From assembly GCA_017463225.1 (NCBI GenBank), contig JAFTPO010000025.1:1-49423 (forward strand): DNA of 49,423 nt. Direction: 5' to 3'. Both the position numbers and the translations under genes were made by a program. This document shows positions 3,582 to 26,753 of the stretch, one piece after another. The stretch comes from Lachnospiraceae bacterium. GTDB taxonomy: Bacteria > Bacillota > Clostridia > Lachnospirales > Lachnospiraceae. The stretch's first letter is position 1. Every line of letters begins with the position of its first letter. A model generated the notes under the pieces. That model was not told the DNA's origin. It did no database searches and saw only the letters and a program-made list of their open reading frames with translations.

Positions 3582-3614
3582 TGCAAAATAATGCGAAACA
3601 CTCCCCAGTATAAT
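3582..3614 (+). promoter_or_regulatory. TGCAAAA-class promoter, copy 1 (before the cas1 remnant)
   Basis: TGCAAAA at 3582 and TGCGAAA at 3592 form a direct repeat with 10-bp spacing. TATAAT starts at 3609, exactly 27 bp after the first half-site. No TTGACA-like box is present at the -35 position. The same layout occurs four more times in this window. Confidence 0.75.
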
Positions 3615-3645
3615 TTCTATTAGAATGTAATAAGGAGGGATAATT

Positions 3646-3849
3646 ATGAGCTACATCTATGTAACAGAAAATGGCGCTACCATATCAGCAAAGGAGAATC
3701 ATTTTGTAATATCAAAGGGAGAAGAACAGTTATACATCGTTCCCATAGAGACTGTTGACAACATAAACATCATAGGTCGATCTCACAAAACCACGCCCTA
3801 TGATGTCGAGTGTTTTAACGGAGGCATCCCCGTTTTCTATTATTCATAA
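3646..3849 (+). pseudogene. cas1: Truncated cas1 (N-terminal 67 residues)
   Basis: The 67 residues match the N-terminal beta-rich domain of Cas1, the CRISPR integrase: Y-V-T-E-N-G-A-T-I-S near the start, then I-V-P-I-E-T-V-D-N-I-N-I-I-G, then G-G-I-P-V-F-Y-Y-S at the end. A full Cas1 has about 320-340 residues, and the catalytic Glu/His/Asp residues lie in the missing C-terminal domain, so integrase activity is not possible from this piece. It has a good ribosome binding site (AAGGAGGG) and the TGCAAAA-class promoter, so it is probably still expressed. Only about 30 bases separate its stop from leader 2, which suggests the gene was cut when the array cassette was duplicated. No cas2 or other adaptation gene is in the window. 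Confidence 0.8.
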
Positions 3850-3880
3850 GGTGGTAATAGCATAGAAGCGAGACAGGTGA

Positions 3881-4089
3881 ATTAGCTTGAAAAATCAGGG
3901 GAAATGTACTATAATAAGTCTGTGTCAGAATTGATTTTCATAAGATTTTGCGCCGATATACGCATTTGCTGGGTTTTTAAGTATTTTAATAATCATTATC
4001 GTTAAAAACGACCCGAAAATAATGTGAAAAATTTTTGCACCGCAAAATGGCTCTGGAAGCCTTATAAATCAAGGACTCCAGAAGGCAGG
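3881..4089 (+). promoter_or_regulatory. CRISPR leader 2 with promoter and an 87-base insertion
   Basis: It shares with leader 1 the promoter (TTGAAA 3887-3892, 17 bp, TATAAT 3910-3915), the ATAAGATTTTGC segment and the near-palindrome before the first repeat (4052-4082). Relative to leader 1 it carries about 87 extra bases (3952-4038) bounded by TTTTGC on both sides. The extra piece has its own inverted repeat (GGGTTTTTAA at 3971 with TTAAAAACGACCC at 4002). A perfect inverted pair TTTTGC-ACC-GCAAAA lies at 4033-4047. Confidence 0.75.
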
Positions 4090-4415
4090 GTTTTTGAAGT
4101 ACCGTACCTAAGAGGGATTGACACCCATTTTCAATAAACTGGCGGATAAGTTCAAGAACATCGTTTTATGAAGTACCGTACCTAAGAGGGATTGACACTA
4201 TCTCTATCTTGTAGATACAGTTCATATAGCTTTCGTTTTATGAAGTACCATACCTAAGAGGGATTGACACCCCATTCATGCTGTCACATTCACCATAACA
4301 TTCGTTTTATGAAGTACCGTACCTAGGAGGGATTGACACCATCTTCTCCTCAATTCTCTTATCCTCAGCCTCGTTGAAGGTTTTATGAAGTACCGTACCT
4401 AAGAGGAATCACCTC
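4090..4415 (+). CRISPR. CRISPR array 2 (5 repeats, 4 spacers)
   Basis: Repeats begin at 4090, 4163, 4235, 4304 and 4380; spacers are 38, 36, 33 and 40 bp. The repeat family is that of array 1. The first repeat lacks one base (GTTTTTGAAG instead of GTTTTATGAAG), the third has CCATACC, the fourth has CCTAGGAGG, and the last is degenerate at its 3' end as in array 1. Repeats 1-4 carry a hybrid of the two array 1 variants (T at position 17, G at position 28). Orientation is left to right. No spacer is shared with array 1. Confidence 0.98.
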
Positions 4416-4417
4416 CG

Positions 4418-4445
4418 GCACCAAGCATCTGCTTGGTGCTTTTTT
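4418..4445 (+). terminator. Terminator of array 2
   Basis: GCACCAAGCA / TGCTTGGTGC stem with a two-base loop and six T. It is nearly identical to the terminator of array 1, as part of the duplicated cassette. Confidence 0.9.
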
Positions 4446-4447
4446 AG

Positions 4448-4480
4448 TGCAAAAAAATGCGAACAATCTGATTCTATAAT
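4448..4480 (+). promoter_or_regulatory. TGCAAAA-class promoter, copy 2 (cas operon)
   Basis: TGCAAAA at 4448 and TGCGAAC at 4458 are 10 bp apart, and TATAAT starts at 4475 (27-bp offset). It abuts the T-run of the array terminator, as copies 1 and 3 also abut terminators. It is the best candidate promoter for the peptide gene and the cas operon. The sequence between the second half-site and the -10 differs from copy 1, while the spacing is kept. Confidence 0.75.
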
Positions 4481-4526
4481 GTTCTCATAGGGCAAATTGC
4501 AGTATTGAGGATAGGAGGTAGTGAGC

Positions 4527-4592
4527 ATGATATGGAAAGTGTTTGGATACATATTATTTGCGGGATTTATTAGCAGACTGGTTAAAGAATAA
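4527..4592 (+). CDS. Small hydrophobic peptide, 21 residues
   Basis: The ATG at 4527 is preceded by a strong AGGAGGT at 4514-4520 and lies about 40 bases after the likely transcription start of promoter copy 2. The peptide has a charged end on each side of a hydrophobic centre (V-F-G-Y-I-L-F-A-G-F-I), so a short single-pass membrane helix is likely. No relative is recognised. It could be a real small membrane protein expressed ahead of the CARF-HEPN gene, a leader peptide, or the stub of a gene lost when the array cassette moved. The 105 bases after it contain nothing else clear. Confidence 0.45.
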   Translation: MIWKVFGYILFAGFISRLVKE

Positions 4593-4696: not shown

Positions 4697-7177
4697 ATGG
4701 ATAAAAAAGAGTTAAATGTGTTAGTTTTATGTATGAGTACCTTGCCTAGGGGAGAGCTGATTTCAAATTCATTTTTTGGAATATATGATAATAAAAAAGT
4801 TACAGGAAAATACGTGGGTTCACTTGAACCGGGAACTAAATATCTTATGAGAGTACTTGGGGATAAGGGCGATAAGTTTGACAAGATAGTAATATTAAAT
4901 ACACAGAAAACTGTCCAAAAAGAGAAGGATAACAAAGAAAAGTCTTTTACTAAGTATTTATATCTTTGTGAAAAAGAAGAAGCGTATTCTCCGGAGAGCT
5001 TTTTTAAGGGAAGAATAGAAAACTACATTAAGGAAAACAAGGGACAGATTAGCAATGTCGCATACCAGGATAATATAGATAATCTTTTTATGAGCATAAT
5101 GTTGGAGCGTGAGCTTGGTAATGGTGAGTTTGGTTTTGATGATATGGCGGCTTACAACATCTGTGAAGAGGTTATGGGTTTGGCTGATGAGGGTCAAAAG
5201 ATAAATGTTTATCTTAATATGCAGGGTGGAATAAGAACCACTATGTTTATAGTTAAAGCAGCGCTGGATCTTCTTAGAGAACGAAATGTGGAGATTAAGG
5301 AACAGGTTGCTGTAGATTACACCCCGGGAGAAGGAGGAGCGCATGAAGTAAAATTTGTTGCAGACGAATATCTGATTATGGACCTTGTAGTAGGTATGAG
5401 ATCATTTGTTAATTATGGTAGAGCGGACGAACTTATCAGATATCTTGGGAAGAGACAGAGAATACAGAAGGATAGCTTGGAGGGTAAACTGGTGGATATC
5501 ATCAGAGATATCGCTGAATCAATACAGATATCAGACCCTGTAAGATTTGAACGCTCTCTCAACATGCTGAAGGATGACAGAAGACTGCTGGACAAGGAGT
5601 CATATCAGGATACTTATTTTAAGATTGCTGTTGATGATATCAAGACCGCCTATGAGCCATTGTTATCAGAGGATACTACAACCGTTGATACTATTCAGTG
5701 GTTCTGCGATAGAGGTTTTGTGTCTCAGTCCCTTACCTTTATAGAGGATAAGATGCCAGAATACTATACTAATCGATTTATAACGGTGGAATCTCCAATA
5801 AGTGACAACGAACTTGTGGGGAGGAAGTTAGAGGCTCCTTCTTATGATACGAGAGTTTCGAATGCTATAATTAATAATTTGCCTACTAGATTGGGAGCTG
5901 AAATAGTAAATGAGTACTCTCGTAATGTAAAAGAGAGAATTATTAATCATTATGTTGATATTAACATAGATAGGATTAGAGCTGTTAAGAGATTACCATC
6001 TGCTGATATTATGAGGAACAATTTGTTCGATGAGTATTGGGAATATTTCGAAATGTCACCGATTTTTGATATGGTTGACGTGGAGAGAGTGATGAGTGGA
6101 TGCCGGTTTAAAGTTGATGATAAACAGTTCGATGCAAAAGAAATTAGTGAGTTTATAAAGACCATTTCTTCATTAAATGATGAAGAGAGCAGTGTAATGT
6201 ATAAACTGACGCACAATTATAAACAGTGCAAAGAGAGTTTAAGTGATGACAAGTATATTAGCTTCCTTAAGGCTATAGAGAACTTTAGAAAGAAAGAGTA
6301 TGATAAGTGTAATTCTGATATAAAGAATTTTAGCATTTGTATGAAGAACGAAATAAAGAGGATTATACCTGGGGATGGTCTTGTTTTGAGAAAGTCACAA
6401 CTTGAAAAAGAGAGGGAGATTTACGGGAAGTATATTCTGTGCTGTTGTGATGATACTTCAAATGGTAATAAGAGGGATAACAAGAAATTAAAACTGTTTG
6501 GTAAAAATACCCAAGGTATGATTTTTGGAAATATTGGTTGTTCAATAGATAGTCCAAATTATTATTTTGAAGTATGGAAAATGATGATTACGGATTATAC
6601 CAAAAATGTGGCAGACATAGATATTGACGTAGAGGAGATATTGAAAGAGTATCTTGCGGACAGTGATAAGCAGGTACAGTTATCAAGAGAATTAACTGAA
6701 CTAACAGATAGTGACAGTGAAATGTCAGATGATATCTGTAATGAGTTTTATGAAAAGTATCTGCGCTTCACTGAGAACAATGATAAATTGCAGAAAAACA
6801 AGAATAAGACCTCATGGGATATATCTTACTGCAACTCAAACTTCTATCACGACCACTGTGGTCAGGAGATAGCCAAGCTTTACGAGGATAACCAGCAGTA
6901 CCTAAAGGTTGAGGATGGTTATATGTATAAGACCATAGCCGGAGTAAAGCACAGTGACAATATTATGCTGAAATATATAGACAGTATTAGTTTTAATCCT
7001 GGTATCGCACCTATGAAGCTGGAGAAGCTTCTTAGATTGCACAGCGCGCTGAAGCAGGAGAGAAATAACACTAATCATGCATCTGAAAAATGTATGAGAC
7101 TTCCACTTTCAGTTATTAAGAAAGCTATATATCTTTACATAAAGTGGGTGAGAGAGATAGAGGGAAGTTTAATCTAA
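4697..7177 (+). CDS. Large CARF-HEPN ribonuclease, Csm6/Csx1-like
   Basis: Protein of 826 residues. The N-terminal 220 or so residues look like a CARF sensor: a Rossmann-type start (L-N-V-L-V-L-C-M-S-T), a strand with I-V-I-L-N-T, and N-M-Q-G-G-I-R at 174-180 in the place of the D-x-T-H-G-x-R motif of Csx1-type proteins. The C-terminus holds R-N-N-T-N-H at 789-794, the R-x4-H catalytic motif of HEPN RNases. The expected role is non-specific RNA cleavage when the CARF part binds a cyclic oligoadenylate made by Cas10. At 826 residues it is about twice the usual Csm6/Csx1 size; the middle 400 residues are charged and unassigned. It is the first large gene of the operon, with AGAGGAG before the ATG. 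The degenerate CARF motif may mean a different ligand. Confidence 0.75.
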   Translation: MDKKELNVLVLCMSTLPRGELISNSFFGIYDNKKVTGKYVGSLEPGTKYLMRVLGDKGDKFDKIVILNTQKTVQKEKDNKEKSFTKYLYLCEKEEAYSPESFFKGRIENYIKENKGQISNVAYQDNIDNLFMSIMLERELGNGEFGFDDMAAYNICEEVMGLADEGQKINVYLNMQGGIRTTMFIVKAALDLLRERNVEIKEQVAVDYTPGEGGAHEVKFVADEYLIMDLVVGMRSFVNYGRADELIRYLGKRQRIQKDSLEGKLVDIIRDIAESIQISDPVRFERSLNMLKDDRRLLDKESYQDTYFKIAVDDIKTAYEPLLSEDTTTVDTIQWFCDRGFVSQSLTFIEDKMPEYYTNRFITVESPISDNELVGRKLEAPSYDTRVSNAIINNLPTRLGAEIVNEYSRNVKERIINHYVDINIDRIRAVKRLPSADIMRNNLFDEYWEYFEMSPIFDMVDVERVMSGCRFKVDDKQFDAKEISEFIKTISSLNDEESSVMYKLTHNYKQCKESLSDDKYISFLKAIENFRKKEYDKCNSDIKNFSICMKNEIKRIIPGDGLVLRKSQLEKEREIYGKYILCCCDDTSNGNKRDNKKLKLFGKNTQGMIFGNIGCSIDSPNYYFEVWKMMITDYTKNVADIDIDVEEILKEYLADSDKQVQLSRELTELTDSDSEMSDDICNEFYEKYLRFTENNDKLQKNKNKTSWDISYCNSNFYHDHCGQEIAKLYEDNQQYLKVEDGYMYKTIAGVKHSDNIMLKYIDSISFNPGIAPMKLEKLLRLHSALKQERNNTNHASEKCMRLPLSVIKKAIYLYIKWVREIEGSLI

Positions 7178-7198
7178 TAATATTTGGGAGGTATTACG

Positions 7199-8797
7199 AT
7201 GAGTGCAGATAAATATGTATTGGCCATGTATGATATACGTGGAAAGCAAAGCTACATATACAGAAGCAACCATATCAAGGAGATCATAGGTGGCTCAAGG
7301 GTTATAGCGGACTGCTATCAGGACTATTTGTTTCCGGCAGCAGTTGCCTATAGGGATGGTATCAGCTTTCAGGAGGCGAGAAGATCCGGAAAGCCTGCTA
7401 TATTCACGTATTTGAGCAAAGATGCAGTGAATAGTGATTTTACCGTTGCAGGCTTTGAGGAGAAGATGGCATCAGACCAGTATGTGGGTGAAGTGGTTTA
7501 TGATGGTGGTGGAAATTTCTTCGTTCTGTATAAGAATGAGGAGGTTTGTGTTGAGATTAATAAGATATTCACTAAGGCGGTGCTGGAGAACACCTTCTCG
7601 CTGAAGGTTCTCTGCACATACATTGAGATAGATAATTTCCAGGACTATATTAGTGACAGAGATGCTCTCTATGAGAAGCACCGTGTGTTTGAGGCCAAGG
7701 AGGCTCCGACTATACCGGCTCAGGTTATGCCATTTACTCAGGTTGATTATAGGACATCTATGCCTCTTTATACCACAGCTCAGGTGGCGAAGAAACCGGC
7801 TATCTCTAAGAAGCTGACTAAGGAGAGCTATTGCAAGTATCAGAAGTATTGGGAGATAGAGGCCGCAAATAGCGACCTGTTTGGCGAGAAGATACTGGAT
7901 AATCTGGTAACCGGAAAGGGTGAGGACAGTCACTTGGCTGTTATATACATCGACGGTAACAATATGGGTGAGAAGGTTCAGAAGTGCCTGCAGAAGGCAG
8001 ATGGAACTGCATGCAAAACCTATGAGGAATGTGTAGCCAGATTGAGAAGATTTTCCGAGGGTATTCAGAAGAATTATATCGATGACAGAATGGTTGATAT
8101 AGATAATGCCTTTGCCAAGAAGTATGGTAAGGACTATGAGACTAAGAAGAGAAGATTCGTTATCTATGCAGGTGATGAGATTAACTTTATCTGCAATGCC
8201 AGAGATGCTCTTATGATAGCCCATACCTATCTGGATAATCTGGACAAAGTGGTTGATGGAGATGGTGTGAAGCATAATGCCTGTGCAGGTATAGCTGTAT
8301 TTCACAGTCACACACCTTATTCTGAGGCATATAGAATTGCAGAGGAGTGCTGTGAATCTGGCAAGACAAGGATGAAGCTTAGAGGCACTAGGGATGCATC
8401 TTTAGTGGATGTGCATTATTGCCAGGGAGCTATAGGTATTGATTTGGAGCGAATTCGTAAGAAGCAGGTTGGAGACCTTATTAGCAAGCCTTGGTATGTA
8501 ACCGGACAGAAGGGAGATAATGCAGATGATGTGTCTCTGGAAATAGTTATGGATATAGCTAAGCAGCTTAATCAGCTGGGTAGGTCCAATGTTAAGGGCT
8601 TGGCGGAGGCTGCTAAGCAGAGTCAGACTAAGCTTCATATGGAGCTGTCCAGAATAAAGGCGCATAATCCTGATATTAAAGGTCTTTTTAAAGATATTGA
8701 CCCGGATGTTTTGCGCAGGACACTTTATGATGTGGTTATAATGTATGACCTATGGTTTTATGAGAAGAAGCAGGAGGAGGTAAAGGTTCATGAGTAG
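7199..8797 (+). CDS. cas10: Cas10-like large subunit without an HD domain
   Basis: Protein of 532 residues, short for Cas10. It begins directly with the first palm domain (M-Y-D-I-R-G-K-Q-S-Y-I-Y-R, then I-K-E-I-I-G-G-S-R), so the N-terminal HD DNase domain is absent. The second palm carries I-D-G-N-N-M-G with Asp252 and Y-A-G-D-E-I with Asp326 and Glu327. The latter replaces the usual G-G-D-D and resembles the A-G-D-E-F variant of GGDEF cyclases, so nucleotide cyclisation is possible but not proven. The presence of a CARF effector just upstream argues for a working second messenger. No clear zinc-finger cysteine cluster is seen. The ATG at 7199 follows TTGGGAGGT and is preferred over the TTG at 7184. 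It overlaps the next gene by 8 bases. Confidence 0.85.
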   Translation: MSADKYVLAMYDIRGKQSYIYRSNHIKEIIGGSRVIADCYQDYLFPAAVAYRDGISFQEARRSGKPAIFTYLSKDAVNSDFTVAGFEEKMASDQYVGEVVYDGGGNFFVLYKNEEVCVEINKIFTKAVLENTFSLKVLCTYIEIDNFQDYISDRDALYEKHRVFEAKEAPTIPAQVMPFTQVDYRTSMPLYTTAQVAKKPAISKKLTKESYCKYQKYWEIEAANSDLFGEKILDNLVTGKGEDSHLAVIYIDGNNMGEKVQKCLQKADGTACKTYEECVARLRRFSEGIQKNYIDDRMVDIDNAFAKKYGKDYETKKRRFVIYAGDEINFICNARDALMIAHTYLDNLDKVVDGDGVKHNACAGIAVFHSHTPYSEAYRIAEECCESGKTRMKLRGTRDASLVDVHYCQGAIGIDLERIRKKQVGDLISKPWYVTGQKGDNADDVSLEIVMDIAKQLNQLGRSNVKGLAEAAKQSQTKLHMELSRIKAHNPDIKGLFKDIDPDVLRRTLYDVVIMYDLWFYEKKQEEVKVHE

Positions 8798-10997
8798 AAA
8801 GAAAGCTATACTTAAGATTAGATTAAAATCGGACCTATGTGCCGGCTCCGGTTATTCCTTCGCAGGAATAGTTGATTCTGATGTGTGCTATAACCAGAAT
8901 GGTTTTCCCTACATATTGGGTAGAAGAATCAAGGGATGCTTGAGAGAGGCTGCAGAGCTTATAGAAGCAGAGGACATAGATAAGATATTTGGAACCGGTG
9001 GAGATAGTAAGCCGGGAAGCCTTATGGTGGGAAATGCTTATCCGGAGAATTTTGCTCATATGGATGACGAGATTAGCAAGCTTAAGAGTAGTGGTAGTCC
9101 TTATGCAGATTATGTGGGAGAGCAGAGTATTATAGGTCAGTTCACCTCCGTGAAGTCACAGACCAAGATTGACAGTAAGACAGGTGTAGCCAAGGAGAAC
9201 AGCTTAAGATACACCAGAGTGGTGAATCGGTTCTCTCCTGTTGATGGAACTGAGAATGTTTTCTGTGCAGAGATTGAGTATGACTGTGATACAGAACAGC
9301 TACTTAGGATAGTTAAGGCATTTAGGCATATGGGTATGAATCGCAATCGTGGATTGGGAAATATCAGCTGTACTTTGGAGGATATTAAGGAGCTTGACAC
9401 TAAGCCGCTTCCTCAGGTTGGAATCGGCCAGGAGCAGATTATGCTTACATATTTGGTTAAGAATGTTCAGCCCCTTGTTATGAGTGGAAGTAGTGATGTG
9501 GAAAGTGACAACTTTGTAAGAGGTCAGAGCGTGCTGGGTATGCTGGCAGGAGAGTATCTGAAGTATGAGGGCAGCAGTCCGGAGGACGAGGCTTTTCAGG
9601 ATATATTTGTGAGAGGAAAGGCAAGTTTTTCTAATCTTACTGTAAGCTCTTGTCAGGAAGATATACACACATATACCCCTGCACCACTTTATATAAATAA
9701 GCTGAAGATATCTAAGAAGCTTATCAATGTTATTAAGCATGAGCCTGAAGATGTGGAAGACGTATACAAGAAGACTGAAGGAAATATACCTCAGAAGATG
9801 AAGAATCAGTTTATGTATCAGTACAGTGATGGTAGCATTCACCTTATGGAGTTGGAGAAGGATATAGTACTCCATCACAGCACCAGAGCTCCTTATGATG
9901 AGGGAAAGTCTCAGGAGAATCCGGATGGCAGAGAGGGAATTCTCTACTCCATGGAGGTGCTTCAGGAGGGTCAGTATCTGGCGGGAACCATTGTGACAGA
10001 GGCTCGCTATAAGAATATAATATTAGCACTTTTGGATGCGGATGTGCTTCGCTTTGGCAAGTCAAAGAGTGCTCAGTACGGTGCCTGTAAGGTAGTTAAG
10101 GTTGTAGAGACACCGATGACAGCGAAGAAGAGCTTTAAGGCAGGAGATAAGGTGCTGGTGACCTTCAACAGTGATGCTGTTTTCACAGATGACAGGGGCT
10201 ATACAACCAGGGGTGAAGCAGTAGCAGAGCTTGTGGCAAAACAGCTTGGTATGACTGTGGTTGACCCGGTTATATATATGGAAACAGATGTTGTATATGG
10301 CTACAATACTACCTGGAATCTTAAGAAGCCTTCTGTACCTGTGGTGAAGGCTGGTAGTGCGATGATGTACACCTTAACAGAGGACGCTGAGGTTGACGCG
10401 TGGGCTGTGGGTGAGCGTTGCCATGAAGGCTTTGGACAGGTAGATGTATGCTCTGTAGATGCCATGTCTTATGTGGTTAAGGTTAGAGATGATGCTGAAA
10501 GCAGTGCAGCTGAGCTTAATGCATGTAAATCATTAGTGAAGAGTATTATGCTTTCTGAGATTGCAGATATGCTGAAGAGTAAGGCTTATGGAATTAAAGG
10601 CATGAATATGAGTCCATCAACCTTGGGAAGAGTAACCCTTATGCTTAGAGAGAGCTTAAATAAGACCAAGCTTTCCTCTGTAGACCGTTTCAAGGATTTC
10701 TATGAGAGAGTAGAATCCATTAAGAGAGATGGGGAAAGGGATGAGATTAAGAAGCTTGTAAAGGGCAATATCTTCAAAGCTGATTCTAAGACCAAGGTAG
10801 CTGAATTGGATGAGAAGAGCTTCTTTAATGGCTTGGTTTATTATAAGTCAGAAGATGAGGAGTTTGTTAAGCTTATAGATTTGTATAGAGAGGCAGTAGC
10901 TGATGATGATCAGTTTGAGAAGCTGCTTTGTGATATGTGGGGAGAGTATCTCATGCATATCTTGGTTTACCAGAAGTATATAGGAAAGAATAAATAG
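8790..10997 (+). CDS. RAMP fusion of the Cas7-Cas5(Csx10)-Cas11 type
   Basis: Protein of 735 residues with three parts. Residues 1-210 form a Cas7-like RAMP domain with G-F-P-Y-I-L-G-R-R-I-K-G near 36-47 and a glycine-rich M-N-R-N-R-G-L-G loop near 184. Asp29 lies where Csm3 has its catalytic Asp. Residues 210-590 look like Csx10 (a Cas5 relative), with G-K-S-K-S-A-Q-Y-G near 417 and G-E-R-C-H-E-G-F-G later. The C-terminal 145 residues are helical, as in a fused Cas11. This order matches the Cas7-5-11 subunit of III-D2/III-Dv complexes. The protein should bind the crRNA handle and cap one end of the backbone. The domain limits are estimates from motifs. Confidence 0.75.
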   Translation: MSRKKAILKIRLKSDLCAGSGYSFAGIVDSDVCYNQNGFPYILGRRIKGCLREAAELIEAEDIDKIFGTGGDSKPGSLMVGNAYPENFAHMDDEISKLKSSGSPYADYVGEQSIIGQFTSVKSQTKIDSKTGVAKENSLRYTRVVNRFSPVDGTENVFCAEIEYDCDTEQLLRIVKAFRHMGMNRNRGLGNISCTLEDIKELDTKPLPQVGIGQEQIMLTYLVKNVQPLVMSGSSDVESDNFVRGQSVLGMLAGEYLKYEGSSPEDEAFQDIFVRGKASFSNLTVSSCQEDIHTYTPAPLYINKLKISKKLINVIKHEPEDVEDVYKKTEGNIPQKMKNQFMYQYSDGSIHLMELEKDIVLHHSTRAPYDEGKSQENPDGREGILYSMEVLQEGQYLAGTIVTEARYKNIILALLDADVLRFGKSKSAQYGACKVVKVVETPMTAKKSFKAGDKVLVTFNSDAVFTDDRGYTTRGEAVAELVAKQLGMTVVDPVIYMETDVVYGYNTTWNLKKPSVPVVKAGSAMMYTLTEDAEVDAWAVGERCHEGFGQVDVCSVDAMSYVVKVRDDAESSAAELNACKSLVKSIMLSEIADMLKSKAYGIKGMNMSPSTLGRVTLMLRESLNKTKLSSVDRFKDFYERVESIKRDGERDEIKKLVKGNIFKADSKTKVAELDEKSFFNGLVYYKSEDEEFVKLIDLYREAVADDDQFEKLLCDMWGEYLMHILVYQKYIGKNK

Positions 10998-11011
10998 TGA
11001 GGAGGTGCCAT

Positions 11012-12322: not shown

Positions 12323-12339
12323 GAAGGAGGAAACTGAGA

Positions 12340-12828
12340 ATGAATATAAATAATATTACTGTGGATAATTCAGGCTATCTTAAGCTGGATGATGAACAGA
12401 TAAAGCTCAAGGCAGGCACTGCAGTTATCATGTTAACGAATCGTTTTCTGGTTGCTCCTTATCCATTTAGAAGTGAAACCATAGTTGAGATTAATCAGGA
12501 CAAGCTTTTAGAATTACGAATCTTTGATGATAATATGGAGCTTAAGCTTTTTAGAGGAAGTGTGGGGAAGGAGTTGAAGTACCGTTACCTAAGCGATGCA
12601 GATTGTCAGGATTATTTCGATGATGAGCAGTATTTGGACGTGGACGAAAAACGATCTAAGGACTGCGATAATGTTAGATCAACCGGTGGTGGAACCTACG
12701 CTGTGCCACTTGCCAGCTTTTGCGATGCTAAGCTTAAACTCAGAAACTATGTGCGATATGATGAAAATGGCCAGTGCTATATCTGGGACTGGAGAATGTT
12801 AGAATTCTTTAATGAGGAGGTGAAGTAG
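12340..12828 (+). CDS. csx19: Csx19-like CRISPR protein
   Basis: Protein of 162 residues placed between Cas7-2x and the large RAMP protein, where III-D2 loci carry csx19. Family-like features are the early L-T-N-R-F-L-V-A-P-Y stretch, L-E-L-R-I-F-D-D-N-M-E-L-K-L-F-R near 49-64 and the acidic F-D-D-E-Q-Y-L-D near 90. Csx19 is a structural subunit in III-Dv complexes, with no known catalysis. The gene has its own ribosome binding site (AAGGAGG) and its stop codon touches the next start. Its coding sequence contains a stretch strikingly similar to the CRISPR repeat at 12574-12593. Confidence 0.7.
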   Translation: MNINNITVDNSGYLKLDDEQIKLKAGTAVIMLTNRFLVAPYPFRSETIVEINQDKLLELRIFDDNMELKLFRGSVGKELKYRYLSDADCQDYFDDEQYLDVDEKRSKDCDNVRSTGGGTYAVPLASFCDAKLKLRNYVRYDENGQCYIWDWRMLEFFNEEVK

Positions 12829-14772: not shown

Positions 14773-14789
14773 AAGAAGGAGCTTTGAGG

Positions 14790-17922: not shown

Positions 17923-17959
17923 AAAAGGGAGACGATAGAAAATATCGTCTCCCTTTTTT
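17923..17959 (+). terminator. Terminator of the cas operon
   Basis: Strong stem AAAGGGAGACGATA / TATCGTCTCCCTTT with a short loop and a T-run, 16 bases after the second WYL gene. Promoter copy 3 begins immediately after it. Confidence 0.92.
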
Positions 17960-17961: not shown

Positions 17962-17994
17962 TGCAAAAATACACGAAATATCTCGGGGCATAAT
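17962..17994 (+). promoter_or_regulatory. TGCAAAA-class promoter, copy 3 (tadA operon)
   Basis: TGCAAAA at 17962 and CACGAAA at 17972 are 10 bp apart, and CATAAT starts at 17989 (27-bp offset). It is the only visible promoter for the tadA-tadB-tadC operon. Confidence 0.72.
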
Positions 17995-18049
17995 AGTATT
18001 ACAGAAAGAGATAACAAAGAGAAAAATTAGATTTATGGAGGATTATATT

Positions 18050-19597: not shown

Positions 19598-19617
19598 GAA
19601 TAAGGAGGATAAATTAT

Positions 19618-20412
19618 ATGAAGAAGATAAATCGTGACAGGAAAAATAGAAGAGGCAATGCAGGACTTATGGGAAATGGTGTGGACTACACTACCTATGA
19701 TATGAAGCCAAGAGATGTGCTTATGGCATTTTTTATTGGAGCTATCGTAGGATATTTGGTCATGTATTTGGCAGCTCATAGCCTTAAGCTTTCCCTTGCC
19801 GCAGGTGTAGTCGGGGGAGTTCTCATGCAAAAGCCTTATAGGAATAGTTGTATTGAAAAGCGCAGAAAGGAGCTTTTGCTCCAGTTTAGAGATTTGATGG
19901 AGTCGCTGGTGGCTTCTTATTCGGCGGGAAATAATCCTCAGTCAGCCTTCGAGAAGGCCTATGACGATATGGTTAATCTCTTCGGAGAGAAAAGCTATAT
20001 GGCAAAGGAGGTATACATTGTAAATTCAGGTGTAAAAAATGGCTACACCATAGAGGCTTTGCTTGGAGATTTTGCAGACAGAGCCAAGCTGGAGGATATT
20101 ACCAGCTTCGTGGAAATATTTAATATCAGCTACCGTAAGGGTGGTGATATGAGCAAGGTTTTGTTTGATACAAGACTGGTTATCAGCGAGAAGATAGAGA
20201 TGGAACAGGAGATGAAGGTGCAGCTTAGAGGCAGTGTAAATGAGCTCAATGTGTTGATTGCAGTTCCGGTAGTAATTGACTTTATGATGAATGGCGGAGT
20301 TTTAGGTGAGAGTAATCTGGGAATAATCTTTAGCTTTATAGCAGTGGGATTATTTGTGGCAGCCTATGCTATGGGACGAGGTATGTTGAAGAAAAATGAG
20401 AGAATTATGTAA
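19618..20412 (+). CDS. tadB: TadB-like inner membrane pilus assembly protein
   Basis: Protein of 264 residues with a type II secretion F-type domain: two N-terminal membrane segments (A-F-F-I-G-A-I-V-G-Y-L-V-M-Y-L), a cytoplasmic helical domain with L-L-L-Q-F-R-D-L-M-E-S-L-V-A-S-Y-S-A-G near residue 85, and C-terminal membrane segments. It should form the membrane platform with TadC above the TadA ATPase. It sits 20 bases after tadA with AAGGAGG. Confidence 0.85.
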   Translation: MKKINRDRKNRRGNAGLMGNGVDYTTYDMKPRDVLMAFFIGAIVGYLVMYLAAHSLKLSLAAGVVGGVLMQKPYRNSCIEKRRKELLLQFRDLMESLVASYSAGNNPQSAFEKAYDDMVNLFGEKSYMAKEVYIVNSGVKNGYTIEALLGDFADRAKLEDITSFVEIFNISYRKGGDMSKVLFDTRLVISEKIEMEQEMKVQLRGSVNELNVLIAVPVVIDFMMNGGVLGESNLGIIFSFIAVGLFVAAYAMGRGMLKKNERIM

Positions 20413-20427
20413 TGTGTTGAGGAGGAA

Positions 20428-21309
20428 ATGATTATGGATATTATGACTAAGGTTATGTTTATAGCAGGCATCGTTATGGCTGTGGCTTGGGTGATTTTAT
20501 ATGTGGTAAATATGTCTCGTTACGACAGAGAACTCTCTGCAGTTCCAAGGGAGGATTATATGATGGTAAGCCCTCTTATATTCGGATTTGGATTTATGAG
20601 ACTGATTAGATTTGATATCAAAAAGTTAAAGTATAGAGGAACCATAGAGAAGCTGGCTAACCTTAAGGGAAAAACTTATGCAGAATATTACTTCTATGTG
20701 ATGAAGGCCAGCGAGATGAATTGGGTATGGTTATCCGTTACTGCCGGATTGATGATGGCAGGATTAGCTAATACGGGGGAGTTAATCGTATTAGGCGTTA
20801 TGATAGGCGCTTTAGGAGTGCTTTACAGAAGGGTAAGCTTAAATGATCAAATGGCTGAAAGGGAAACACAGCTTTTGGCAGAGTTTCCTGCTGTGGTATC
20901 TAAGATGACACTCTTAGTAGGTGCGGGACTTACTATGAGGGATGCCTGGAGGCAGATTGCTTCAAGTGGCCAGGGACTTATATATCAGGAGATGAGACTT
21001 GTGGTGGCGGACAAGGACAATGGAAGAACTGACGAGGAGGCTTATGGTGACTTCGGCAAGCGCTGTGGTCAGAAGGACATCAGGAAATTCGCCATATCAA
21101 CCATTCAGAATATTCAGAAGGGTAATGCCCAGCAGATAGAGTTTTTGAAGGATATGTCAGACGAGATGTGGGAAGTAAAAAAGAAATTAGTTAAGAAGAA
21201 GGTGGAGGATACCAAGTCCCTGCTTTTGATACCAACCTTTATGGTGTTTATAGGAATTTTAATTATGGTAATGGGACCTATGCTGGCAAGTATGTCAGCC
21301 GGGTTCTAA
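20428..21309 (+). CDS. tadC: TadC-like inner membrane pilus assembly protein
   Basis: Protein of 293 residues, second platform protein of the Tad system. It has an N-terminal membrane helix, a pair of mid-protein membrane helices (W-L-S-V-T-A-G-L-M-M-A-G-L), a cytoplasmic F-type domain (L-L-A-E-F-P-A-V-V-S-K-M-T-L-L-V-G-A-G) and a C-terminal membrane helix. The start at 20428 follows GAGGAGGAA. Another ATG two codons downstream is possible. Confidence 0.85.
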   Translation: MIMDIMTKVMFIAGIVMAVAWVILYVVNMSRYDRELSAVPREDYMMVSPLIFGFGFMRLIRFDIKKLKYRGTIEKLANLKGKTYAEYYFYVMKASEMNWVWLSVTAGLMMAGLANTGELIVLGVMIGALGVLYRRVSLNDQMAERETQLLAEFPAVVSKMTLLVGAGLTMRDAWRQIASSGQGLIYQEMRLVVADKDNGRTDEEAYGDFGKRCGQKDIRKFAISTIQNIQKGNAQQIEFLKDMSDEMWEVKKKLVKKKVEDTKSLLLIPTFMVFIGILIMVMGPMLASMSAGF

Positions 21310-21324
21310 CAGGAGGTGATTTAG

Positions 21325-21852
21325 ATGGAAGGCTTTATGAAGAATATTAAAAATAATAACAGGGGCAGCATGATGATAGAGGCTGCCATCTATTTTCCGC
21401 TGATTATATTGGTCGTTGTATCTGTGATTATGCTGTTCCTTTTTAAGCTGGACAAGATTATGACTCAGGCAAACCTTAGCATAAAGGCTAAGGATGTACA
21501 GCAGGAGATGACCTTAGAGGAGATACATACATATGGTTATATGCAGGCTATGGGAGATAACTCTGACCTAGATGGTAAGAGAATACTTAAGGTAACAGGA
21601 AGTAGATCCGGGATGTATCAATGGGGCACAGGAGGGGATGTGTATCCCGTTATGGAGGTGGATTACACTTCTAGCTATATGCTGGATTTTATGGGCTTGA
21701 TACCACAGACCAGCTCCCATGGTTTCTTAGTGAAGCATAGTCCCTTTAACACAAGTATATCTATGCGGGATGTTAGTTTGTTCAGTCAGGTTATATCCGG
21801 AAAGATAGGTGTTACTTACGAAGATTATATGAAACGGCAATACGGTTATTAG
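21325..21852 (+). CDS. TadE-like minor pseudopilin
   Basis: Protein of 175 residues. A short basic leader ends in N-N-R-G-S-M-M-I-E-A-A-I-Y-F-P-L, followed by a hydrophobic helix, the pattern of TadE/TadF pseudopilins processed by the prepilin peptidase. The remainder is a small extracellular domain. It starts after AGGAGGTGATTTAG and continues the tadABC operon. The specific partner is unknown. Confidence 0.75.
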   Translation: MEGFMKNIKNNNRGSMMIEAAIYFPLIILVVVSVIMLFLFKLDKIMTQANLSIKAKDVQQEMTLEEIHTYGYMQAMGDNSDLDGKRILKVTGSRSGMYQWGTGGDVYPVMEVDYTSSYMLDFMGLIPQTSSHGFLVKHSPFNTSISMRDVSLFSQVISGKIGVTYEDYMKRQYGY

Positions 21853-21866
21853 AGAGGAGAAAAACT

Positions 21867-23279
21867 ATGAAGAATATTAAGATTAACAATACAGGATCAG
21901 CCACAATATTTATGGTTTTATTGCTTGTACCTATGATTGCATTTATGTGCGTGGTTATATTTCTTGCACAGCTTAGTGCAGCCAAGGGTATGGCTGCTGA
22001 TGGAATAAGCTTAGCAGGCAATGCAATTTACGCAAGCTACAACAAGCCTATGAGAGATGCTTATGGAATATATTGCTATACCAAGACTCCGGCGGAGCTT
22101 ACAGAGGTGGCAAATTACCATGTGAACAAATCTATGGAGATAGATGCGCAGGTTAATGCTGTGGTTGTGTATGAGGGTGAAAGTCTGGCCAATGATGAGC
22201 TTTTCACACAGCAGATAGTTGACTATATGAAGAATTGGGACAGAGTGGCAGGCAAAGTAACCGTTAATCATGTTCTTCAGATGAAGGCTTACAGGGAGAA
22301 GGCATTAGAGATTAGAGAGAAGCTTCAGGCGGATTATGACAGGGCTATAAATTCAACTTATCAGGAAACTCAGACACCTGAGGGAGATGCTGTAACTGCC
22401 AGAGAAAATGCAGTATCAACAGCTGATGCCAGCCTGCTTAGACTTGACTTTGGAGGCGCTAACAACGAGGATAAGCCATACTATGCAAACTATACATCAT
22501 TAATCAATAGTGCCGTTCCGGTTATCAGCTATACAAATACCAGTGAGGTGAATGTGGGCTATGGTATCTCTATGCTGGATTGCGCCAACGCATATCTTCA
22601 GCCTATAGACCAGGTTTATGCATCTATGCTGGCAAAAGATACAAACTACAAGGTTGCACTATATGCCTTCAACAATTTTTCTGCATATAACTATTTTGGA
22701 TGTGCCAGCTTAACAGGTAATTATTTCCAGTCAGGGGATGTGGTAAGTATTTCGCCTTGGGCAGAGGCTGAGTTTATTCTAAATGGTACTGACAGTGATC
22801 AGAAAAATGCAGAGACTGTGAGAGATATGATATATAACATGCTTTTTATGGAGTATATGGCAAGATTGTATGACATTTGTATGAGTGACACCAGAGTACA
22901 TGAACATGCTGTGACCTTAAGCGGTGGAAACCCTGATAAGGTAGAGCTCATTAAGGATGAGTTTTTGGTGGGAATAAGTGCTAATTTGGCGTGGGATTCT
23001 CTGGAGAAGAGCTATGGCTTTCTGGAGAACCAAGGAGTTACATTTGCTTCTTACCCATATTATATAGAGTTATTCCTTATGCTGGATACACAAAGGGACT
23101 ATCAGGGAATGATGGGACGTATGAAGTACCTTATAGGAGAGAATATGCGTAACCCTGCCAGCAGTCAGGAGGCAAGAGAATTTGAGTTTAGTAAGGCATA
23201 TCTGATGCCTAGTATAGATAGCTATCAGGTTATTGTCACACCATCCTTCGGTGGTAGTGTCAGCTTTGAAGGGAGATGA
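21867..23279 (+). CDS. TadG-like / DUF5702-type pilus-locus protein
   Basis: Protein of 470 residues with a short leader (K-N-I-K-I-N-N-T-G-S-A-T-I-F) and one N-terminal membrane helix (M-V-L-L-L-V-P-M-I-A-F-M). A long extracellular region with an extended helical stretch follows. Its position between two TadE-like genes and its N-terminus suggest a TadG-like or DUF5702-type protein that builds or anchors the pilus. No von Willebrand A motif is evident. Its stop overlaps the start of the next gene. Confidence 0.55.
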   Translation: MKNIKINNTGSATIFMVLLLVPMIAFMCVVIFLAQLSAAKGMAADGISLAGNAIYASYNKPMRDAYGIYCYTKTPAELTEVANYHVNKSMEIDAQVNAVVVYEGESLANDELFTQQIVDYMKNWDRVAGKVTVNHVLQMKAYREKALEIREKLQADYDRAINSTYQETQTPEGDAVTARENAVSTADASLLRLDFGGANNEDKPYYANYTSLINSAVPVISYTNTSEVNVGYGISMLDCANAYLQPIDQVYASMLAKDTNYKVALYAFNNFSAYNYFGCASLTGNYFQSGDVVSISPWAEAEFILNGTDSDQKNAETVRDMIYNMLFMEYMARLYDICMSDTRVHEHAVTLSGGNPDKVELIKDEFLVGISANLAWDSLEKSYGFLENQGVTFASYPYYIELFLMLDTQRDYQGMMGRMKYLIGENMRNPASSQEAREFEFSKAYLMPSIDSYQVIVTPSFGGSVSFEGR

Positions 23280-23863
23280 TTAGTATGAAAAAAGCTTTGA
23301 GAGAGGAAAAGGGTATGATGACCGTGGAGGTTATAATCGGTCTTACTATATATGTGGTTTTCTTAGTTCTGATGATGAATTTACTTAATGTTATATACAT
23401 AAAGCAGAAGTTTCAGGCGGCTATGAATCCGGTGGCAGTTAAGCTGTCAAGGGAGTACTACGTGGATACTATAGTGGCAGAGGATGGGGTTGGTTATGAG
23501 AAGGTAATGCTTGATGAGCTTATGCAAAGAAGAGGACAAGGCTATGTGAATCTTTCAGGGGATTTCACTTCAAAGGAGAATCTTAGATATGCAGCTATAG
23601 CGAAGGCTGAGAAAATGCTTTTTATGCTTACAGCTGATTTTAAAACTGTAGGCTATGCCAGCAGTGATGCTTATGCGGATATGTGGATAGTGGGAGGCTA
23701 TGATGGTATCTCCTTTGATGGTACAAGGATTGATGAAAACGGCTCCGGTGAGCTGGAGCTGGTAATAGAATACAGGATTAGGATAGCTAATCTGCCTTTG
23801 TTTGGAGGCACGGGATTATACATACCGGTAAAGCAGACTGCCAGCACTAAAATATGGGAATAG
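23276..23863 (+). CDS. TadE/TadF-like minor pseudopilin
   Basis: Protein of 195 residues. The N-terminus R-E-E-K-G-M-M-T-V-E-V-I-I-G-L-T-I-Y is a typical processing site (cleavage after Gly, conserved Glu five residues on), followed by a hydrophobic helix. The ATG at 23276 overlaps the previous stop; a second ATG at 23285 is also possible. It is the last gene of the tadA operon, and promoter copy 4 begins immediately after its stop. Confidence 0.75.
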   Translation: MISMKKALREEKGMMTVEVIIGLTIYVVFLVLMMNLLNVIYIKQKFQAAMNPVAVKLSREYYVDTIVAEDGVGYEKVMLDELMQRRGQGYVNLSGDFTSKENLRYAAIAKAEKMLFMLTADFKTVGYASSDAYADMWIVGGYDGISFDGTRIDENGSGELELVIEYRIRIANLPLFGGTGLYIPVKQTASTKIWE

Positions 23864-23896
23864 TGCAAAAAAACACGAAATACATACAACTATAAT
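23864..23896 (+). promoter_or_regulatory. TGCAAAA-class promoter, copy 4 (prepilin peptidase operon)
   Basis: TGCAAAA at 23864 and CACGAAA at 23874 are 10 bp apart, and TATAAT starts at 23891 (27-bp offset). It begins at the first base after the TAG of the preceding gene, with no terminator between. Confidence 0.75.
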
Positions 23897-23935: not shown

Positions 23936-24568
23936 ATGGTGATAATACAGATGATAGTTGGGATGCTGATTGGATTGTCCACATTGATGCTGGGACAGGA
24001 GTATTACAGGAACAGATTTAAAACCTCAATGCCGGATGTAAAGGTATATGGGATAGCACAGGTTACACTTCCTATGGTTATGGCAGGACTATTTTGCAGA
24101 TATGGATATCATCTGCTGATTTCCCTCCAGCTGGTAATTCTTATGTCACTGCTTTTGCTGGCAGCGAAAATTGACAAACACAACATGATCATTCCTAACG
24201 GGATAATAGTGGTGTTGCTTGCAACAAAGACTGTTCTGTGGTTGATGTTTTACCTGATTGACCTAAAGCATTTTGCTGAGGACATATCCCAGGGCTTGTG
24301 CGGTCTGGTGGTCATGGCAGTTACGTTTCTTGTGCTTAGGCTTGCATATAAGGGCGGAATTGGAATGGGAGATATAAAGCTTATGGTGGTTGTTGGTCTT
24401 TATCTGGGAGTTATGAGAAGTATGTATGTGCTGCTGGTAGCTTCTATGGCAGCTGTAGTGATAAGTCTGATGTCCCTAGCCAAAGGGAAGCTGAAGGTTA
24501 AGGATAGTCTAAGCTTCGGACCCAGCATAGCCTTGGGCGGAGTGATAGTGTTGATATTAGGTATTTAG
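23936..24568 (+). CDS. Type IV/Flp prepilin peptidase (A24 family)
   Basis: Integral membrane aspartic protease of 210 residues. The two catalytic Asp residues are Asp80 (K-I-D-K-H) and Asp146 in the family motif G-M-G-D-I-K-L. F-G-P-S-I-A-L-G near the C-terminus is also typical. It lacks the N-terminal methylase domain, as TadV-type peptidases do. It should process the Flp pilin and the TadE-like proteins of this locus. It is the first gene of its own operon. Confidence 0.88.
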   Translation: MVIIQMIVGMLIGLSTLMLGQEYYRNRFKTSMPDVKVYGIAQVTLPMVMAGLFCRYGYHLLISLQLVILMSLLLLAAKIDKHNMIIPNGIIVVLLATKTVLWLMFYLIDLKHFAEDISQGLCGLVVMAVTFLVLRLAYKGGIGMGDIKLMVVVGLYLGVMRSMYVLLVASMAAVVISLMSLAKGKLKVKDSLSFGPSIALGGVIVLILGI

Positions 24569-24580
24569 GAGGAAAAAGAT

Positions 24581-25957
24581 ATGAAGAAAACAAATAAAAG
24601 AAATATGACATTTAATAAAATCAATACACTTATGGCAGCATTGCTTGTGGTTATAATTTGCTGTATGAAGCTTCTTTCTATGTGGAATAGCAAGACTGAG
24701 CTTGATTATTTTAATGAGCATGTGCTCAAGGGAAAGGAGTATATGGAGCAGTCCTGTTACGTGGAGGCTATTCAGGAGTTTAAGAAGGCAGACCTTGTCA
24801 AGGGTGATGAAAATGTAAATGTTGCCATAGCTGAGTGTTACTTAGGCTTAGGGGATTATACCTCCTTTAAGACATGCTCAGATCATATTAGAAATACCTA
24901 TGGAACTAACGAGAAGCTGTACCAGTATATTGCATATTATCATGCACATATGAATGATTCATACAATGAGATTCAAATTCTAAAGGAGGGAGTTGCATTT
25001 TACCCTGAGTGCGAAGCCCTGAAGGAAAAATATGATGCTGTTAAGGGCAAATACACTCAGGCCGGATATTACTCTGACCAGGTTGTATATATGGGACATC
25101 AGTACATAATAGTTGCTTCTGAGGGAAAGGAGACAGTGATGAATGCCACCTTGGGTAAGGTTGGAGATAAGGAGTATGAGAAGGTTTATGACATCTCAGA
25201 GGATAAGTGTGTACAGGATATGTGGCAGGATACTCAGATGCTCTATTCAGCTAAGGCTGATGGAAGAGTTAGCTACTATGACAGTATGGGCTATAAGAGA
25301 AAATCTCCTGACAAACAGTATGCATTTTTAGGTGCGCCTAGAGATGGTTATGCTCTGGTTCAGTCCCAAGAGGGATGGGGATATATAGATGGAGAGTTTA
25401 ATGAGTTAGGAGAATGGTTTGAGGATGCCACCGCCTTCAGTGAGGGTATGGCAGCGGTGAAATGTGATGGCAAATGGGCCTTCGTGGATAAGGATTTTAA
25501 TTATATAACAGAATTTGAGTATGAAGGAGTGGTAATGGATGAGTTTAAGTGCTGTAGCAAGGCAGGTGTTGCCTTTGCTCAAAAATCCGGTAGTTATGTG
25601 TTGGTAGGCATTGATGGAGAAATGGATATGGATGAAGACTACAGCCAGGCCAAGGGCTTTAGCTCTAAAAAGGATTATGCTGCTGTTAAGACAGCAGATG
25701 GCTGGAAGCTAATAGATGTAAAGGGAAATACAGTTGAAGCTGTGGACTGTGATGAGCTTTGTTCTTCAAGTAACGGTATAGCACCATTTAAGAAAGGAGA
25801 TAGCTGGGGGTATATAGGAGTAGATGATGGTGTGTATGTTGAGGCGACCTTTGACGGGGTAACACCTGTTAACAAAAATGGCTATGGAGCCATAAAAACA
25901 GACCAACAGTGGAGGTTTATAGGTTTTTCCAGATTCCAGGTGAATCAGGGATTGTAG
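24581..25957 (+). CDS. Membrane-anchored TPR and WG-repeat protein
   Basis: Protein of 458 residues. One N-terminal membrane helix (L-M-A-A-L-L-V-V-I-I-C-C-M-K) is followed by TPR-like helices at about 40-150 (Y-M-E-Q-S-C-Y-V-E-A-I-Q-E-F). From about residue 250 there are several WG-type beta repeats (E-G-W-G-Y-I-D, C-D-G-K-W-A-F-V-D, A-D-G-W-K-L-I-D, G-D-S-W-G-Y-I). Such a protein could scaffold pilus components outside the membrane; the function is unknown. It follows the prepilin peptidase by 12 bases. Confidence 0.65.
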   Translation: MKKTNKRNMTFNKINTLMAALLVVIICCMKLLSMWNSKTELDYFNEHVLKGKEYMEQSCYVEAIQEFKKADLVKGDENVNVAIAECYLGLGDYTSFKTCSDHIRNTYGTNEKLYQYIAYYHAHMNDSYNEIQILKEGVAFYPECEALKEKYDAVKGKYTQAGYYSDQVVYMGHQYIIVASEGKETVMNATLGKVGDKEYEKVYDISEDKCVQDMWQDTQMLYSAKADGRVSYYDSMGYKRKSPDKQYAFLGAPRDGYALVQSQEGWGYIDGEFNELGEWFEDATAFSEGMAAVKCDGKWAFVDKDFNYITEFEYEGVVMDEFKCCSKAGVAFAQKSGSYVLVGIDGEMDMDEDYSQAKGFSSKKDYAAVKTADGWKLIDVKGNTVEAVDCDELCSSSNGIAPFKKGDSWGYIGVDDGVYVEATFDGVTPVNKNGYGAIKTDQQWRFIGFSRFQVNQGL

Positions 25958-25993
25958 CAGTGATTAAAGAATATAAAGAAAGAAGGTATTTGT

Positions 25994-26713
25994 ATGAGAT
26001 ATTTTTATGAGGAAAACAATGGTCAGTTAAATTTGGTGTGTCTGCTTGAGGACGAGCAGTTGCATCCGTTCACCTATCCTATGATAGAGAATAATCAGAT
26101 ATTTGGTTTGCTAAAGCCTATGTATCAGTCCAATGTTCAGGGTGTTAAGAGGTTGGTATACAATGTGACAAATTGTATGACCGTGAAGGATTATCTTCTA
26201 AGCTACGGCACTGAGGAGATTCTTTCTAAAACCTACGAATACATAATGGCCATAAAAAGCAGTATAGCTGCTTATGGTATCAGCGAAAGGCATTTTTTGT
26301 GGAATGCGGATGGAATGTATTTCAACTGTGTTACAGGGGAGATATATCTAATCTGTGTACCTTTGGATGTGTGCGTAAGCTACTCCATGCCGGATTTTAA
26401 GCTGATGGCAAACCTTAGGGAATGCATAGGCCAAGGCAGGGTAGAGAGCCTGTATCCATATACAGACGAGGGGGATTTTGATGGGGAGACAACTGTGTTG
26501 TGTGCTAATGATAGTCCCTATGTGATAGAGAGAAAGGAGAAACCAAGATTTAAGCTGTTTAGTGAGGCTGCACCCAGCCCTAAGGAGCTGAGAAGACAGA
26601 GAAAGGAAAGTAGAAGAGCCAGAAAACTGGAGCGAAAGCAGGATAAGCTTATAAAAAAACAGATTACAAGAGAGGAGGGCTTTGGGTTTTGTCAGATACC
26701 TAGCTTAATCTAG
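25994..26713 (+). CDS. DUF6382-like protein
   Basis: Protein of 239 residues. The N-terminal 170 residues resemble the DUF6382 domain seen in Firmicute pilus and ESX-type loci (I-E-N-N-Q-I-F-G-L-L-K-P, then F-L-W-N-A-D-G-M-Y-F-N). Full family members often carry a C-terminal FHA domain; here the protein ends instead in a highly basic Arg/Lys tail (K-E-L-R-R-Q-R-K-E-S-R-R-A-R-K). A role in signalling to the pilus machine is possible but not shown. Confidence 0.5.
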   Translation: MRYFYEENNGQLNLVCLLEDEQLHPFTYPMIENNQIFGLLKPMYQSNVQGVKRLVYNVTNCMTVKDYLLSYGTEEILSKTYEYIMAIKSSIAAYGISERHFLWNADGMYFNCVTGEIYLICVPLDVCVSYSMPDFKLMANLRECIGQGRVESLYPYTDEGDFDGETTVLCANDSPYVIERKEKPRFKLFSEAAPSPKELRRQRKESRRARKLERKQDKLIKKQITREEGFGFCQIPSLI

Positions 26714-26720
26714 GTTCTGG

Positions 26721-26753
26721 CGCAAAAAAATGCTAAAGCAATGGGGGTATAAT
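26721..26753 (+). promoter_or_regulatory. TGCAAAA-class promoter, copy 5 (Flp pilin)
   Basis: CGCAAAA at 26721 and TGCTAAA at 26731 are 10 bp apart, and TATAAT starts at 26748 (27-bp offset). Its -10 box lies just before the ATG at 26756, which rules that codon out as the pilin start. Confidence 0.7.

Follow-up and report, generated by a model that had tools for sequence, protein, structure and literature searches.

A direct-repeat promoter class accompanies tandem WYL regulator genes at a type III-D CRISPR-Cas and Tad pilus locus of a Lachnospiraceae bacterium

The window analyzed here is a stretch of 49,423 nucleotides from a Lachnospiraceae bacterium (assembly GCA_017463225.1, contig JAFTPO010000025.1), which carries a type III-D clustered regularly interspaced short palindromic repeat (CRISPR)-Cas operon ending in two genes for tandem WYL regulators (15536-17907) and a Tad pilus gene cluster. 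Six sites of the window share one build, in which two half-sites stand at an exact spacing upstream of a -10 box, the -35 box is missing and the class is confined to the locus. A like element is present at three further loci with tandem WYL genes: (i) G848, where the WYL genes are orthologous to those of the window, and (ii) the congeneric Cas13a loci G004 and G407, where the WYL genes are distant. The promoter class is associated with the WYL genes and not with CRISPR or Tad, as G848 has the motif while no CRISPR or Tad genes are recognized in 35 kb. Since the class tracks the WYL pair in several related genomes, the pair is probably the switch that acts on it. It is considered fairly likely that the sites are promoters through which the tandem WYL regulators control one small regulon, by a PafBC-like activation that replaces the -35 box.

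Promoter sites of the window

The initial annotation, made from the sequence alone, described five sites as one promoter class shared by the CRISPR-Cas and Tad operons. These sites are present as described, at positions 3582, 4448, 17962, 23864 and 26721, all on the + strand. In all five, the first half-site is TGCAAAA (CGCAAAA at 26721), the second half-site starts exactly 10 bp later and the -10 box, TATAAT (CATAAT at 17962), begins exactly 27 bp past the first half-site. The search pattern is derived from these five sites, so their own matches to it are by construction. A sixth site, overlooked in the initial annotation, is found at 1962 (TGCAAAA-N3-CTCTAAA-N10-TATACT). This site scores 20.2 in a scan of the window with the five-site matrix, where the next position scores 13.3, and its score is attained by none of 200 dinucleotide shuffles of the window (top shuffle 19.5). 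When each site is left out of the matrix in turn, the left-out site is outscored by at most four positions, which is the number of training sites.

The half-sites are direct repeats with a 10-bp step and a consensus of about TGCRAAA, and the element is non-palindromic. If the -10 hexamer is taken as -12 to -7, the first half-site spans -39 to -33 (center -36) and the second -29 to -23 (center -26). At spacers of 15-19, no more than three of the six TTGACA positions match in any of the six sites, and none of these sites has the TGn of an extended -10. By contrast, ordinary TTGAAA-17-TATAAT matches lie upstream of both CRISPR arrays (2957 and 3887). This build supports the earlier suggestion that an activator site replaces the -35 box. 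Sites 3582 and 4448 belong to a common terminator-plus-site block, found at the ends of two neighboring CRISPR arrays; the block is duplicated and, therefore, the two sites represent one event and the independent sites number five, not six. Thus, the five sites first described hold as sequence but not as five independent cases.

The tandem WYL genes

The wyl1 (15536-16843, + strand, 435 aa) and wyl2 (16840-17907, + strand, 355 aa) genes, unseen in the initial annotation, are the last two genes of the type III-D cas operon and lie directly upstream of site 17962. The first 4 bases of wyl2 are also the last 4 of wyl1. WYL1 has HTH_11 (residues 7-55) and WCX (375-425) domains, while its WYL domain is detected by the PADLOC WYL profile (280-425) only and not by Pfam. 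WYL2 has a WYL domain (173-237) and a WCX match just below the Pfam cut-off; its helix-turn-helix (HTH) is read off the alignment, as the window protein has no Pfam HTH match. The overlapping genes are, thus, two adjacent HTH-WYL-WCX genes, as expected of a PafBC-type activator. Of the profiled window proteins, the WYL pair stands out as the most evident candidate for the regulator, and the lack of another exact site in the genome argues for a regulator that is locally encoded.

WYL1 relatives are rare, with matches in three of 396 other family genomes at 25-32% identity. The WYL2 profile, at a threshold of 1e-8, matches in 74 of 397 genomes and yielded further WYL pairs; the strongest of these matches were examined and the remainder taken as ordinary single WYL regulators. 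Ten loci with overlapping WYL1-WYL2 genes were examined (the window, G848, G004, G407, G319, G452, G207, G197, G616 and G623), and the overlap and gene order, judged by longest open reading frame (ORF), are the same in all ten. Further searches gave no relatives of the window WYL1 or WYL2 in the genome_contigs collection, of the window or G004 WYL1 in viral contigs, of WYL2 in plasmids and phages, or of the G407 WYL2 and the cas-operon DNA among plasmids.

Distribution of the motif

The initial annotation held that scattering of the motif before unrelated genes, as a general promoter, would speak against a shared class. Beyond the five sites themselves, the own genome (2,774,234 bases in 95 contigs) contains no exact match to their pattern, which rules out a general genome promoter and bears out a class confined to the cas/Tad neighborhood. 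With up to two mismatches, two places are added in this genome (site 1962 and one in contig C80), compared to one for a reversed control pattern. A family-wide promoter is also ruled out: with up to one mismatch, the pattern is found at 22 places in 21 of 298 other family genomes, at most two per genome, versus nine places for the reversed control.

Other candidate identities were rejected. A feature of CRISPR trailers is ruled out by the four of six window sites that lie away from the arrays and by the G848 stretch, in which array-like repeats were not found. A Tad-specific promoter is ruled out by 29 tadA loci from 29 other genomes (about 4.2 kb each, spanning tadA and about 1.5 kb per side, with the peptidase and pilin promoters outside), all of which are without a comparable site (best score 13.7). 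TadA-type genes are found in 289 of 299 family genomes, and the own genome contains one more TadA-type match besides that of the window. A resemblance to the Spo0A box was dropped, as the core letters fail to align. The proposed sharing of one promoter class by CRISPR and Tad stands for this window, whereas the class as such goes with the WYL genes and not with CRISPR or Tad.

The promoter element at other tandem WYL loci

G848, a genome of the same genus as the window, provides the out-of-sample locus. Its WYL1 and WYL2 are orthologous to those of the window (47% and 56% identical by MAFFT; 46% and 52% by BLAST), and the VSKRTVQGD stretch in the HTH of WYL1 is identical in both. The site, TGCGAAA-AAA-TGCGAAA-N10-TATATT, is a perfect direct repeat with the 10-bp step. 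In the 16-kb stretch that holds the WYL pair, a 20-column matrix trained on the six window sites only scores this site 21.9 and the next position 12.4; the maximum in the adjoining 19 kb is 10.9. None of 200 dinucleotide shuffles attains 21.9, the top shuffle being 19.7. The site is 44 bp past the end of wyl2, directly behind a hairpin and T-run, while its window counterpart, 17962, is 55 bp past wyl2. Across the 35 kb of G848, blastp of the ORFs against the window ORFs matched the WYL pair only, and the eight proteins profiled (the WYL pair and six neighbors) include no CRISPR effector or Tad protein, apart from weak Cas3c and Csa3 matches by the WYL pair and a conjugation-type ATPase that matches mad8 weakly. 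Directly upstream of the WYL pair (L126, 3442-7876) are a 618-aa protein that has a weak, sub-cut-off HEPN match and an 853-aa protein, both unknown; this two-protein unit is possibly an undescribed defense cassette.

The Cas13a loci carry an element that is one base longer, with TGCACAA as the first half-site and a half-site step of 11 bp, compared to 10 bp in the window and G848; the distance from the second half-site to the -10 is 17, as in the window. G004 has two copies of TAAGTGCACAAA...-N10-TAnnnT, first noticed by visual inspection and then recovered as members of a repeat family, one between the array terminator and cas13a and the other just past wyl2, before a DUF4230 gene. The pattern built from these two copies has no more matches in five genomes at up to three mismatches, and its controls have none. 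In G407, of the same genus as G004, TGCACAA-N4-TGCAAAA-N10-TAATAT lies between the array and the DUF4230-cas13a operon and is the only exact match in the G407 genome to a pattern built from the G004 and G407 sites. At two mismatches, this pattern gains one extra place each in G004, G407 and G319, while the control has one place in G319 and two in G197. With the window-trained half-site matrix, the best G004 site leads its locus at 16.5 versus 11.4, just over the 95th percentile of 60 block-shuffle maxima. For the Cas13a sites, placement carries the argument more than score. The G407 WYL1 is assigned by alignment only, with no Pfam or PADLOC matches, and no Tad genes are recognized among the ORFs looked at in both loci. 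A DUF4230 gene is downstream of the element in both Cas13a loci, and a protein without Pfam match lies between cas13a and the WYL pair (746 aa at L103 3605-5845, - strand; 732 aa at L108 13424-15622, + strand).

The gene contexts of the WYL pairs vary. Type III-D CRISPR accompanies the pair in the window, in G319 (protein similarity to the window cas proteins and an array) and in G452 (a Cas7 III-D match and arrays). Other contexts are Cas13a (G004 and G407), methylase and HEPN_Swt1 genes (G207), protein kinases (G616 and G623) and other genes (G197 and G848). A three-gene module of WYL1, WYL2 and a protein kinase is noted in two genomes of other families in the class (L119 1052-4514 and L120 11559-15518). 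A WYL-like pair of G853, outside the ten loci, is without the motif and looks like another subfamily.

Several results weigh against a promoter class read by the WYL pair. The motif is lacking in six of the ten tandem WYL loci, including G207, G197 and G616, where the WYL genes look intact. It is also lacking in G319, G452 and G623, where the loci may be damaged: G319 has a transposase-like ORF upstream and a WYL1 of just 250 aa, and the WYL1 of G452 and G623 is divided between two ORFs, such that the HTH-side and WYL-side matches are apart. More distant WYL pairs may read other letters. A relaxed search for half-sites and a -10 in the other WYL loci gave many chance-like matches. One match in G319 (L034 12166), within an ORF distant from the WYL genes, scores 19.9 with a nine-site matrix, above two of the nine training sites; it was judged a chance match. 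In the Cas13a loci, cross-locus matrix scores are modest. With the window-trained half-site matrix, the second copy of G004 ranks fifth and the G407 site leads narrowly at 13.1 versus 12.7; with G004 in the training set, the G407 site scores 15.0 versus 11.0, just under the 90th percentile. As congeners, G004 and G407 do not count as fully independent cases; the identity of their WYL proteins to those of the window is just 19-25%. In G848, a looser half-site matrix that allows three spacings ties the site with another position of different spacing (15.36 each), and no motif precedes the first genes of the operon, a region that holds a transposase-type gene. Within the window, the top shuffle nears the score of site 1962, which is, therefore, the least certain site. 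Finally, the PafBC structure entry 6sj9 matches the WYL2 profile weakly, with an E of 0.47.

Proposed mechanism and alternative explanations

The paired WYL genes, the direct repeat over -26, the good -10 and the missing -35 fit a PafBC-like mode of action. WYL1 and WYL2, translated from overlapping genes, would act jointly, most likely as a heterodimer, and would bind the two direct half-sites centered near -36 and -26. The bound pair may then let the housekeeping RNA polymerase start from promoters in which a good -10 is present and the -35 is missing. With a site in front of the cas operon and the wyl genes at its end, the arrangement could form a self-reinforcing switch, and the tadA, prepilin peptidase and pilin promoters would be turned on in the same event. 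As three promoters of the Tad cluster carry the element, Tad control is not mere read-through. We infer binding, activation and heterodimerization from these arrangements, and likewise a signal that the pair would receive and a benefit of joint control.

Among the alternatives, a single protein, as a WYL1 or WYL2 homodimer, may read both half-sites while the other protein is a signaling partner. The half-sites can be identical, as in the G848 repeat, which suits a homodimer; the retention of overlapping genes in the same order in all ten tandem loci does not, and the dimeric BrxR, in the part of its description considered here, uses inverted repeats (PMC9122601). This alternative is judged unlikely, if arguable. 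It is rather unlikely that the WYL proteins own the sites as repressors, sitting at -39 to -23 and blocking polymerase until phage infection or damage. BrxR, a characterized WYL protein of a defense island, is described as a repressor in the passages at hand and lends this idea a precedent. According to the same passages, however, BrxR binds inverted repeats downstream of the -10, whereas the window sites are direct repeats upstream of it. In addition, promoters that lack both the -35 and the extended -10 would offer a repressor little to act on, and the constant 10-bp distance to the -10 points to an activator.

An improbable explanation is that TGCAAAA is recognized as a -35 by a global host regulator or an alternative sigma factor. 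TGCAAAA does occupy the usual -35 position; yet a global factor would be expected to have sites elsewhere in the genome, where no exact match is found, and the like element adjoins wyl genes in other contexts. That the similarity stems from chance or duplication is very improbable: sites 3582 and 4448 do stem from a single block by duplication, but the remaining sites stand in different flanks, the leave-one-out scores hold and the motif is recovered in G848.

Joint activation by the WYL pair may be part of a broader pattern, which is put forward tentatively and as somewhat short of an even chance. The pair would represent a portable two-protein WYL switch, not close to PafBC, that has its own promoter class (a TGCRAAA direct repeat and a -10) and is paired with type III-D CRISPR, Cas13a and a CRISPR-free cassette. 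In the window, this switch would have captured a Tad pilus, such that one nucleic-acid-type signal serves both immunity and a surface machine. The initial annotation suggested, as possible grounds for joint control, that the pilus could act as a receptor for phages or as an entry route for DNA and be tuned with defense. Tad pili reportedly serve DNA uptake in Liberibacter, according to the title of one study (PMC8513845).

Relation to known WYL regulators

PafBC of mycobacteria is a WYL heterodimer in which, according to the portions of the studies considered, PafB binds a -26 element and PafC touches sigma domain 4, making the -35 dispensable (PMC11804915, PMC6789036). Single-stranded DNA is given there as the ligand of PafBC (PMC11804915) and, in a partial view of a separate study, of DriD (PMC12340889). 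The window system resembles this account of PafBC in having two WYL/WCX proteins with an N-terminal HTH and a non-palindromic element near -26, with a -10 present and no -35 needed. It differs in the additional conserved half-site near -36 and in its small local regulon of cas and Tad genes, compared to the about 150 DNA-damage genes ascribed to PafBC in the same portions. The WYL1 profile matches no WYL structure up to an E of 1 among the matches listed. As sequence similarity is weak, we do not place the pair within the PafBC family.

Similarly to the BrxR-type regulators, the WYL regulators of the window are encoded with an anti-phage system. In the passages considered, BrxR is a dimer of one protein that represses from inverted repeats (PMC9122601); the window instead has paired genes and 10-bp direct repeats at -36/-26, and its sites do not form a BrxR-type inverted-repeat operator. 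DriD of Caulobacter is, like the proposed pair, a WYL activator, and its structure entry 8tp8 matches the WYL2 profile with an E of 0.0086, while four other WYL entries match slightly better. By contrast, DriD is described in the available part of its study as a homodimer that makes contacts other than with sigma (PMC12340889). The presence of WYL genes in cas neighborhoods is shared with the CRISPR-associated WYL/CARF regulators of a 2014 survey; the text of this survey does not contain the word tandem, and the passages considered here mention neither a promoter element in common nor a regulon with a pilus (PMC4012209). Likewise, no tandem-WYL promoter class or co-control of CRISPR and Tad by a WYL module is found among the literature matches listed, which cover titles and the starts of abstracts and include few subscription papers.

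If the proposal is true, a tandem-WYL family with a recognizable promoter extends PafBC-like working to the CRISPR systems (type III-D and Cas13a) of other bacteria, and the promoter becomes a sequence signature for locating tandem-WYL targets. Joint control of the Tad pilus makes a link between immunity and a surface structure directly testable.

Organization of the window and neighboring genes

All features in this section with a stated strand are on the + strand. The sixth site (1962-1994, +) lies at the end of a DUF1835/DUF3658 ORF and upstream of a MYG1/UPF0160-type gene (2016-2870, +), its possible target. Site 3582-3614 (+), in the duplicated block, follows an array terminator (3551-3574) and precedes a cas1-like remnant of 67 codons (3646-3849), identified by reading of the sequence alone. 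Site 4448-4480 (+) follows the second array terminator (4417-4440) and is upstream of the cas operon. A CRISPR upstream region, short array, terminator and promoter site thus occur twice in tandem (2950-3640 and 3880-4510), and this tandem block, with the cas1-like remnant after its first copy, looks like a duplication with loss of cas1. The end of site 4448 is separated by 217 bp from the first cas gene; in between is a 21-codon ORF (4527-4592), which is hydrophobic and preceded by a GGAGG-type site.

The type III-D cas genes (4697-15518, +) encode a CARF2-CARF_HEPN-type protein (826 aa), Cas10d, Cas5/Cas7 III-D (Csx10-type), a RAMP protein, Csx19, a TIGR03986 RAMP and Cas6. Csx19, TIGR03986 and Cas6 are over the NCBIfam cut-offs, as befits type III-D; Csx10 is under its NCBIfam cut-off, yet matches PADLOC Cas5_IIId at 2e-110, and Cas10d matches at 3e-87 (PADLOC). 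Between wyl2 and the next promoter is a hairpin (arms 17927-17937 and 17943-17953) with a T-run (17927-17959, +), which abuts site 17962-17994 (+) and separates wyl2 from the tadA operon. This operon (18035-23863, +) includes a TadA ATPase, two T2SSF-type genes and three more ORFs. Site 23864-23896 (+) abuts the stop codon of the last of these ORFs (23276-23863) and precedes genes for a prepilin peptidase (Peptidase_A24), a WG-repeat protein and a DUF6382 protein (23936-26713, +). Site 26721-26753 (+), the CGCAAAA copy, lies before a Flp-type pilin gene (26756-27178, +). As expected of a Tad pilus, the ATPase and peptidase matches are strong and the T2SSF matches are one at and one above cut-off; the weaker members are the pilin, with a Flp1_like match under the Pfam cut-off, and the last ORF of the tadA operon, with a very weak TadE match.

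Downstream of the Tad cluster is an operon (28792-35101) with an AAA protein, DUF7192, TelA and a weak SLATT_5 match, for which the window scan gave no motif site. Between a DUF1508 gene and this operon, TTGGGCATAGA is repeated four times at 62-bp steps (28606-28830), with a CCCAA-type arm after each copy.

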